From a virus: DNA of 24,677 nt. Position 1 is the stretch's first letter. Every line of letters begins with the position of its first letter. The translations under genes and the position numbers were made by a program. Below are positions 15,616 through 19,111 of the stretch, piece by piece. Location of the stretch: the IMG/VR virus record IMGVR_UViG_3300049460_000241, positions 1 through 24,677 of that record; one strand, 5' to 3'. The notes below the pieces were generated by a model that searched no databases, was not told the origin of the DNA, and saw nothing but the letters and a program-made list of their open reading frames with translations.

Positions 15616-16407
15616 ATGGCAACCCCCATCATTCCCTGGATCGGCGGCAAGCGTCGTTTGGCAGATCACATCATCCCGCGCTTTCCCGCGCATGAGTGCT
15701 ACGTCGAGGTATTCGCGGGCGGGGCCGCGTTGTACTTCATGCGGCCGCCCGCAAAAGTCGAGGTCATTAACGATATCAACGGCGAGCTGGTGAACCTGTA
15801 CCGTGTCGTGCAGCACCACCTCGAGGAGTTCGTGCGCCAGTTCAAATGGGCATTGTCGAGCCGGCAGGTGTTCAAGTGGTTGCAGGACACGATCCCGGAA
15901 ACACTCACCGATATCCAGCGTGCGGCACGCTTCTACTACCTGCAGCAGAATTGCTTCGGCGGCAAGATTGAAGGGCAGTCGTTTGGCACTGCGACGACCA
16001 CACCGCCCGGTCTGAACCTGCTGCGACTCGAAGAGACCCTGTCGGCGGCGCATCTGCGTCTGTCCAACACGTTCGTCGAGCGGCTTGACTGGAAGACCTG
16101 TATCGACAAATACGACCGTCCGCACACGCTGTTCTATCTCGATCCGCCGTATTGGGAAACGGAAGGCTACGGGGTGCCTTTCCCGGGCACGGAATATGTC
16201 GCAATGGCAGATCGGCTCCGTGCGCTGAAAGGCAAGGCGATCATCAGTCTGAACGACCACCCCGCGATAAGGCAGGCATTCGACGGCTTCCACATTGAGA
16301 CGTTGGATATTAAGTACACCGTGGGTGGCGGCGGGAAAGAAGCAGCCCGCAAGGAAGTAATTATTTTTAGTTGGGATGATGCGGCACAGCCGGTCGGGCT
16401 TTTTTAG
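15616..16407 (+). CDS. D12-class DNA N6-adenine methyltransferase (Dam-like)
   Basis: A 263-residue enzyme that transfers a methyl group from S-adenosylmethionine to adenine in DNA. Motif I is EVFAGGAALY (FAGG at residues 33-36), preceded by the N-terminal PIIPWIGGKRRL typical of the class. Motif IV is YLDPPY (DPPY at 176-179). The length fits D12 enzymes. The recognition site cannot be read from sequence. Dam-like phage enzymes often protect phage DNA from restriction or alter host gene control. No restriction partner is next to it, so it is a solitary methylase. The ribosome site is weak (AAGG ten bases upstream). It stands alone between oppositely oriented accessory genes. Confidence 0.92.
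   Translation: MATPIIPWIGGKRRLADHIIPRFPAHECYVEVFAGGAALYFMRPPAKVEVINDINGELVNLYRVVQHHLEEFVRQFKWALSSRQVFKWLQDTIPETLTDIQRAARFYYLQQNCFGGKIEGQSFGTATTTPPGLNLLRLEETLSAAHLRLSNTFVERLDWKTCIDKYDRPHTLFYLDPPYWETEGYGVPFPGTEYVAMADRLRALKGKAIISLNDHPAIRQAFDGFHIETLDIKYTVGGGGKEAARKEVIIFSWDDAAQPVGLF
16388..16405 (+). terminator. Possible weak terminator overlapping methyltransferase end
   Basis: A 4-bp stem AGCC / GGCT with a 5-base loop is followed by six T residues and lies inside the last codons of the methyltransferase gene. The stem is short, so the call is tentative. Confidence 0.35.
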
Positions 16408-17178: not shown

Positions 17179-17474
17179 ACTTCACCTATGCGAGGCCGTA
17201 GACGACTGAAGTTCGTCCCACGCCGCCCTTGTCAAGTATGGCAATTGGGCGCGTCGATCGCGCCCAATATGCGAGGCCCAAGCCGTCCTTTCGCCGCTGT
17301 CTGCGAGGGCAGGGAGTGACACTGGAGAAGTTCGAACGGAACATCAAACCATCAGCTTGTTCGCGAACTCTGCAAGCCGGGTGGAGCGTGCGGTCAGGAA
17401 AGGATGGTAAATGCTTAAGGCATGAACCCTACGGTGAACTTATACAAATGCAGCGTTTGGGCATCATCTCGGAC
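17179..17474. other. Convergent intergenic stretch with a strong hairpin
   Basis: No gene is supported here; the rightward frame starting at 17229 is a shadow running into the HEPN-type gene. A 10-bp perfect inverted repeat ATTGGGCGCG / CGCGCCCAAT (17244-17268, 5-base loop) lies between the two converging genes and may end both transcripts, although neither side has a T-tract. The 11-mer TATGCGAGGCC occurs twice, at 17187 and 17268, 81 bases apart. Confidence 0.5.
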
Positions 17475-18521
17475 CTAAGTCTCGATCGTCGTGGTTACAA
17501 GTTGTTCGTCAAATCGCAATTCGACAATCCGCTTTTTTATCAACGCCTGCAGTGTCGCAATCAGCAAAGATGCGCCGAATTTTCTGAGTTCGTGAAGCTC
17601 CATCAGGTGGTTGTCGAGACGTCGATCCATCACTTCGCTGGCGGCCGGGTGTGGCACCGCGTAACCACCGTGCACGAATGAACTGCGCCAATCGTACAGT
17701 TCGCGTAGCCGCTTGTTCAATCGTTTTTGAGTGGATGCATCGAGCTCGAGAATTGCGGCGAGGCGCCGCACCAATCCGGAGACGCTCTCGCCGACCTTTG
17801 TTGACACTATTGCTTCGAGTCCATGAAAGAGCCAGGTGGCCGAGTCGATTCGTGCGTCGTCGCGAGCCATGTGTAGCAGGACGAACAGCGCTCTCTCGAT
17901 TCCTGTTTCCGCCCGCTGCTTATACCCGATGTTCAGAGCCTTGAACCATTTGCAGACCAGTTCCGGTGGTAAGGCTTGCAGGCTGGGCCAGTTGCCGTCA
18001 AGTGACTCGGCCCAGCCGACGTCAAATGCGAAGGCGGACAGCCTTACGTCGGTCGAATGGCGCTGTTTGGGGTTTGCGATCGAGGTTCTGTAAAAGTCTG
18101 CGGACCCCGGCACAGAGAGATTTGCGATAAGAAATACTTCGTGGACGAAGGTATCCAGAAAGAAGGTTGGGTACCAATCGTAGGAGCAAAATTCATTGGT
18201 TCCGCTGACGGTGACCTCTGCACGGATCCGCAGTGGCCGGTCGATTTTAGCTAGCCAATCTTTGACTGGTGGCGTGTTCTCTCTCAGCGGCCGCAGCAGC
18301 CCGTAGTCGCGCCGGAGGCGACCTGCCAAGGGTTGCCAGTTGATGTCGACAGTGATGGTGCATCCTTCGTGTTCGTATTGGCGATTCCGCACCTCCTTTG
18401 GTGCTTTGTGCCAGAACTCCTGAATTTGCGGCTCGATGGTTTCCCAGTGTTCGTCACTATCTCGCGTGAGGTGCTTCAGCTCGAGTATGTGCGGGTATGT
18501 AATTGACTGCGATTGCGCCAT
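17475..18521 (-). CDS. HEPN-domain protein, Apea-like (candidate defence RNase)
   Basis: A 348-residue protein from ATG 18521, with AAGG eight bases upstream; ATG 18536 would add five residues but has no ribosome site. The C-terminal half is helical and carries RLRELYDWRSSFVHGG, where Arg279 and His284 form the R-x4-H motif of HEPN ribonucleases. The surrounding LYDxRSxxVHG matches what I know of the Apea-type HEPN group. An earlier helix WLFHGLEAIVS (about 230-240) fits the first part of that domain. The N-terminal half (residues 1-190) is beta-rich and unrecognised; it may sense a phage product. Apea-type proteins are linked to abortive infection. In a prophage this gene would protect the lysogen from other phages. 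No membrane segment or second toxin-antitoxin gene is seen beside it. Confidence 0.7.
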   Translation of the reverse strand: MAQSQSITYPHILELKHLTRDSDEHWETIEPQIQEFWHKAPKEVRNRQYEHEGCTITVDINWQPLAGRLRRDYGLLRPLRENTPPVKDWLAKIDRPLRIRAEVTVSGTNEFCSYDWYPTFFLDTFVHEVFLIANLSVPGSADFYRTSIANPKQRHSTDVRLSAFAFDVGWAESLDGNWPSLQALPPELVCKWFKALNIGYKQRAETGIERALFVLLHMARDDARIDSATWLFHGLEAIVSTKVGESVSGLVRRLAAILELDASTQKRLNKRLRELYDWRSSFVHGGYAVPHPAASEVMDRRLDNHLMELHELRKFGASLLIATLQALIKKRIVELRFDEQLVTTTIET

Positions 18522-18593
18522 ATGGTCAACCTTCATTCAAGAATCGACCGCCTGTGTGTAGACGGGTCCGCGTTCATGCGCCGCGAATGGAAA

Positions 18594-18610
18594 TGCTACG
18601 GATCTGCTAC
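18594..18610. repeat. Attachment-like 17-bp repeat, left copy
   Basis: TGCTACGGATCTGCTAC matches 16 of 17 bases with 24267-24283. It consists of TGCTAC twice at an 11-base period, like tandem binding sites of tyrosine recombinases. It lies just outside the last phage-like gene, which makes it a candidate attR. The assignment is not proved, because the left end of the prophage is outside the window. Confidence 0.45.
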
Positions 18611-18614
18611 GCTA

Positions 18615-18655
18615 GGAAAAAAGCCCGACCAATACCTCGTTGAGCGGTCGGGTTT
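18615..18655 (-). terminator. Leftward terminator shielding the HEPN-type gene
   Basis: A 10-bp stem (18621-18630 with 18646-18655, one G-T pair) with a 15-base loop. The A-run 18617-18622 on its left gives the T-tract for leftward transcription. It lies upstream of the HEPN-type gene and would stop transcription arriving from the right. Confidence 0.6.
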
Positions 18656-19111
18656 CGACCGATACGGTACTGATTGTTGTAACGAGCCCGTCTAGTGCAC
18701 TGCAAAGCGCGACAAGTCGTTCATTAAATGCATTTTTTTCGGTCATCCAAATACCCCGAGAGTATGTTTATCATTGGTGTTAGCTAGTTTCATTGTTTGG
18801 AGCGAAACCTAGTCTGGTGACTTAATCTTGGCGGCCCGCCAGAACCGGAGCTTACTCCATGGGCGCCTGCATTGAGTGTGGAGTTAAACAATCTGGGTTT
18901 TTGCGGAGTCAATCGCAATGCGCGCAGTATTGGCCGCGGCGAGACAGGCCTTGTGGCTGTCATCCCATCCGCTGACCTATCGCCGCCGGGAACACTCGTC
19001 AAAGTGACTTTGACCGGCTCAGGTCGACCCTTTTCGGACGGCCGCCATCTGGGCATGTATGGTTGGATTAAGCCTTGTATCGGACATTCAGCCGCAGCTG
19101 GGCGAAGCGCT
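18656..19111. other. Gene-poor stretch, possible dispersed-repeat remnant
   Basis: I see no convincing gene. Overlapping frames on both strands at 18790-19129 encode low-complexity, Arg/Pro/Ser-rich peptides without a ribosome site. The sequence AAAGTGACTTTGACCGG at 19001 is nearly repeated at 15442. From memory, similar short stretches recur in Burkholderiaceae genomes, which suggests a relic of a dispersed element; this is unverified. Confidence 0.35.

Follow-up and report, generated by a model that had tools for sequence, protein, structure and literature searches.

A one-gene HEPN protein within or at the margin of a Paraburkholderia prophage as a probable anti-phage defense

The HEPN gene of the window, the whole 24,677-nucleotide stretch of viral DNA analyzed here, probably encodes a one-gene anti-phage defense that shields both the bacterium and its resident prophage from other viruses. 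Taken as a whole, the explanation is that of single-gene anti-phage cargo (a 'moron') carried by a temperate phage, and we hold it with good though not high confidence. A defense role is considered probable because relatives of the gene fill prophage slots that otherwise hold known anti-virus systems; this evidence comes from the integrase-to-PrtN interval of other prophages, the window gene's own interval being the one from Dam to the right flank. The original prediction, made from the letters of the sequence, had already proposed defense, and the slots back it independently. The short region upstream of the gene would drive its expression in the lysogen, and the protein would form a dimer in which R279 and H284, together with Glu236, would make up a metal-independent endoribonuclease site. 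The N-terminal half may hold this RNase latent and sense infection, with a product of the infecting phage as the putative trigger that relieves latency. RNA would then be cut and phage growth would stop, probably at the cell's cost, as in abortive infection.

The gene and its immediate surroundings comprise the following features:

17475–18521, minus strand: gene of the HEPN protein (P0001, 348 aa), supported by its open reading frame and translation, an 89% identical homolog (L001), a dN/dS of 0.15 and a Shine-Dalgarno sequence
17469–18610, unstranded: stretch shared with Burkholderia sp. OK233 (88%, blastn), containing the gene and 89 bp upstream and nothing else
18616–18652, minus strand: hairpin resembling a terminator, located upstream of the gene; its GC stem of 7 bp precedes CTTTTTT (dG -17.5, z -1.4)
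17244–17268, unstranded: strong hairpin 3' of the gene with a 10-bp stem (dG -21.6, z -3.6)

The open reading frame is a real gene. Its start had been placed at the ATG at 18521, a choice now supported by a well-spaced Shine-Dalgarno sequence, GAAGG, at 18530–18534; an alternative in-frame ATG at 18536 has none. The dN/dS of 0.15, obtained against the gene in Burkholderia sp. OK233 (89% identity), separates into 0.19 for the N-terminal half and 0.10 for the C-terminal half, placing both under purifying selection, and two prophage copies of the HEPN gene give 0.11 between them. These low values indicate that the HEPN protein is maintained. A scan of the window's signals found no sigma-70 consensus promoter. 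The upstream terminator, originally drawn at 18615–18655, is plausible, although its z-score against shuffles is just -1.4; its loop exceeds what the terminator scan covered. It falls just beyond the DNA shared with OK233. The hairpin proposed on the 3' side is indeed strong but lacks a T-run.

Over its left 16.4 kb, the window encodes tail, lysis and Dam functions typical of a tailed phage, here a Paraburkholderia prophage, whose last recognized phage-type gene in the window is the methylase:

15616–16407, plus strand: Dam-type methylase (Pfam MethyltransfD12), conserved in sister loci and the last gene common to the sister prophages

DNA that matches a phage-free stretch of another Paraburkholderia replicon starts at 19079, and the response-regulator gene to the right of the HEPN gene has a counterpart of 97% identity on another G103 replicon. 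The earlier view of a stand-alone gene at the prophage end fits a prophage margin, between the Dam gene and the replicon-like DNA at 19079. The data place the HEPN gene either inside the prophage or at its edge, and no more closely because the exact prophage end was not found; no integrase or repressor is seen near this copy. The late genes as far as Dam are also present in sister loci of Paraburkholderia G103, G072 and G009. These loci match the window again at 24.25–24.68 kb, and between the two regions they carry 6–10 kb of unrelated DNA. The window's HEPN gene lies inside this variable interval.

The right margin with its repeats and unrelated DNA, along with a decayed copy in G123, would suit passenger DNA, that is, a HEPN gene that arrived by horizontal transfer, was left behind in a prophage margin rich in repeats and has lost its function here. 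The intact, Shine-Dalgarno-bearing reading frame and the low dN/dS against OK233, with both halves under selection, speak against such a loss and make it very improbable.

Several observations concern the margin itself. A 60-bp block at 18972–19030 was dropped as a candidate phage end, since it recurs elsewhere in Paraburkholderia genomes; noncoding and dispersed in several of them, it occurs near prophage Dam genes, once flanks a transposase-like gene on either side and is possibly an IS end or a small repeat. An interpretation of all DNA right of 19079 as plain host was weakened by the presence of the 24.25–24.68 kb stretch in three sister prophages. The segment 24267–24677, shared with L143, L144 and L145 at 6–10 kb past their Dam genes, suggests a common integration neighborhood, and an ABC-F-like ATPase gene lies near its counterpart in two of the three. 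In a G103 sister prophage (L143:11488–12828), an ORF resembling an IS256-type transposase interrupts the Dam gene. Near another sister prophage's Dam gene, a 1246-aa protein (L147:4652–8392, minus strand) has a restriction-endonuclease-like N-terminus by eye and no PDB match.

Structural modeling divides the protein into two parts, with its putative catalytic residues in the second:

17532–17909, minus strand: predicted C-terminal HEPN domain, residues about 205–330 (AlphaFold helices and top VIA-align matches)
18072–18521, minus strand: N-terminal half, residues 1–150, a possible sensor (AlphaFold; ferredoxin-like prediction, weak structural matches)
17670–17687, minus strand: predicted catalytic motif R279-SSFV-H284 at the end of helix 262–284 (all nine family members keep R, S280, F, V and H)
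17814–17816, minus strand: codon of Glu236, the predicted helix-2 acidic residue (invariant in nine family members)

The segment LYDWRSSFVHGG, in which R279 and H284 had first been noted, is exact in the 348-aa translation. Presence of an Rx4H motif alone is no proof, because about two thirds of shuffled versions of the protein (68%) also contain one, and the actual protein has three. Only the copy at 279–284 is conserved. The family alignment combines the window protein with eight homologs, including deep branches at 27–33% identity, and leaves out L013, which has lost the motif, and the very distant L014. All nine members keep the pattern R279-S-x-F-V-H284-G-x-Y plus Glu236, with E236, R279, S280, F282, V283, H284, G285 and Y287 invariant; judged from this alignment, Rx4H conservation across such divergent members is well beyond chance. 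The excluded L013 (7332–8345, minus strand) is a distant HEPN relative whose catalytic histidine is gone (RNGLFL), possibly a non-catalytic homolog.

The AlphaFold model, built from seven input sequences (mean pLDDT 74, pTM 0.79), predicts a C-terminal bundle of helices at 207–220, 227–239, 247–258, 262–284 and 300–329. E236 lies in predicted helix 227–239, while R279 and H284 close the penultimate helix, 262–284. In HEPN domains, helix 2 carries an acidic residue and helix 3 ends with the motif; an additional helix may stand between the two (PMC3710099). The predicted model shows this four-helix HEPN fold with the motif closing helix 3, and the protein combines an Rx4-6H motif, a polar residue after the arginine (S280) and a helix-2 acidic residue (E236). 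Against the PDB, the first 15 VIA-align rows all belong to the HEPN superfamily (Z 7.2 to 4.3), the top ones including 2hsb (AF0298), MNT-HEPN toxins, Las1, MtlR and RnlA; helical bundles can reach Z of about 7 in structural alignment. Foldseek returned no significant match to the full model in the PDB or among viral models, its first-placed, non-significant rows being LsoA and an RNaseLS-like viral protein. The HEPN assignment is strong because predicted fold and invariant Rx4H/Glu residues agree, and the model thus supports the original claim that the C-terminus is a HEPN domain. The N-terminal half is predicted as a beta-alpha-beta-beta-alpha-beta, ferredoxin-like core plus a helix. Folded alone, it gives weak ferredoxin-like matches at Z of about 4, the same as background, and it is as unrecognized as first described; a sensor function for it is possible.

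Profile searches place the protein outside cataloged families. Pfam, NCBIfam and PADLOC gave nothing for P0001 at E<=10, with zero PADLOC-DB models matching at that threshold, and Pfam gave no HEPN match for any of the eight homologs. The only PHROGs match is a weak one, to the unnamed family phrog_28161 (E 0.0017, residues 223–290), and a PDB sequence search with the family profile found none. The label 'Apea group' given at first did not hold. HEPN_Apea (PF18739) proteins, tied to defense by gene context (PMC3710099), do share a HEPN C-terminus with Rx4H; those of the same genus, Paraburkholderia, are 440–580 aa with a long N-terminal part, whereas the window protein has 348 aa. Membership in that family was dropped: the PF18739 model matches neither P0001 nor any of the eight homologs at E<=10, and in hhalign the PF18739 proteins of Paraburkholderia give a signal close to noise, with the domain reaching a probability of 3.4% and a score of 22 versus at most 18 in 20 shuffles, barely above them though with the motif in register, and the full-length comparison being noise. 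By these comparisons, the right label is 'HEPN, unassigned family'. The family is uncataloged, and the one-gene prophage defense that it probably represents is of an already known kind.

The relatives of the gene occur in varied surroundings. In OK233, the HEPN gene shares its island with a serine recombinase, a DUF2971-like protein, a helicase and, directly upstream, an FRG-domain protein; a 58% relative has an Mrr-type endonuclease and a helicase-like gene in its vicinity. On two Alteromonas plasmids, a 29% relative is found two genes away from a tyrosine recombinase (plasmid integrase). At L003:6374–7703 (plus strand), also in Alteromonas, two genes lie between plasmid integrase and HEPN relative, one with a weak PD-(D/E)XK match, forming a possible small defense island. 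Two viral contigs place a 34% relative (L007) convergent with an S24-type repressor, named by eye, and four prophages (L024, L025, L042 and L044) have a HEPN relative directly downstream of the integrase, at 8 to 44 bp where measured. Each context has its own flanking genes. Among the relatives, L006 is decayed and the prophage copy L024 carries a frameshift close to its start.

The strongest contextual evidence comes from a set of 80 prophages (L045–L124) collected by an integrase at least 84% identical to that of one HEPN carrier. All 80 have a PrtN-like gene, named by eye, downstream of the integrase and reversed, and the interval between the two, 361 to 5428 bp long, holds a wide variety of unrelated gene sets. 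HEPN relatives occupy this slot in 3 of the 80, the fourth carrier, L025, lying outside the set. At least 23 of the 80 slots hold proteins matching known or candidate defense families, a count obtained by extending scanned cluster representatives to the other cluster members and possibly too high, as the methylase matches are generic. By prophage, the contents are type II methylase (8), PD-Lambda-5 (A/B; 5), Septu PtuA/PtuB (4) and KAP/PDC-S20 (4), and an AriA-like ATPase and an NsnA-like protein also occur.

This distribution bears on two other functions. An RNA-binding HEPN protein with weak or no catalytic activity that tunes lysogeny as a phage or host regulator, in the manner of MtlR, would explain why relatives adjoin an integrase or repressor and why MtlR is among the fold matches. 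It is nevertheless unlikely: the complete, invariant Rx4H plus Glu is typical of active HEPN RNases, and the gene behaves as optional cargo, missing from most of the 80 related prophages. The other candidate is the toxin of a toxin-antitoxin or addiction module, an RNase that would stabilize the prophage instead of fighting phages. HEPN toxins are frequent in such pairs, and both MNT-HEPN toxins and RnlA are among the solved folds closest to the model. The MNT-HEPN toxin HepT ranks with the top structural matches (Z about 7), but no MNT partner is seen for the window gene, which also has a long extra N-terminal half. RnlA/LsoA (RNase LS), itself an anti-phage RNase, likewise joins an N-terminal alpha/beta part to a C-terminal HEPN domain and resembles the model in structure (VIA-align Z 4.5; non-significant top Foldseek row, E 0.29), but no antitoxin gene is seen near the window gene and there is no PDB sequence match. 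The unit shared with OK233 is a single gene without a partner, the neighbors change from one context to the next, and the slots of L044, L042 and L024 measure 1174–1210 bp, room for the HEPN gene alone. Because the slot in three of four HEPN carriers just fits one gene, no partner protein appears to be needed, and a toxin role is accordingly improbable. Toxin-antitoxin, regulator and dead passenger are each less likely than defense.

The best precedent for defense by such a protein is Tha, a one-gene prophage HEPN RNase proven in S. aureus, which is switched on by tail proteins of the infecting phage and needs its HEPN histidine (PMC11087260). Like Tha-1/Tha-2, the window protein is the product of one prophage gene (301 aa there, 348 aa here) and couples an unrecognized N-terminal half to a C-terminal HEPN domain with Rx4H. 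Tha sits beside integrase and repressor, as do the relatives L024, L025, L042 and L044 (integrase) and L007 (repressor). The two differ in that no sequence relation is detectable (BLASTP E 1.5; hhalign E 0.6 full length, 0.17 domain) and that no counterpart of Tha's tail-protein trigger or of its antisense inhibitor Ith is known here. The window protein may therefore work like Tha rather than be Tha, no sequence relation being detectable. By this analogy, the best-supported mechanism is a Tha-like, one-gene abortive-infection RNase that would stay latent until infection is sensed.

More tentatively, and with somewhat less than even confidence, the family may represent new one-gene HEPN defense proteins with a previously undescribed N-terminal domain, each sensing a phage product directly, and ranging from Paraburkholderia islands and Alteromonas plasmids to the integrase-to-PrtN slots of other prophages. 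Tha offers the precedent, being a prophage HEPN protein that stands alone and is activated by a conserved phage protein. If the reading is true, a second family of Tha layout in which no sequence relation to Tha can be detected would point to repeated origin or divergence of this design. It would also be a compact system invisible to PADLOC and Pfam, whose sensing could be mapped to an N-terminal half of about 150 residues.

The integrase-to-PrtN slot is also a compact catalog of known and unlabeled candidate defense genes. Its unmatched gene sets are candidate new defense systems, among them a pair in L065, L062, L075 and L099, another pair in L111, L115 and L106, and the set in L122, L121 and L116.
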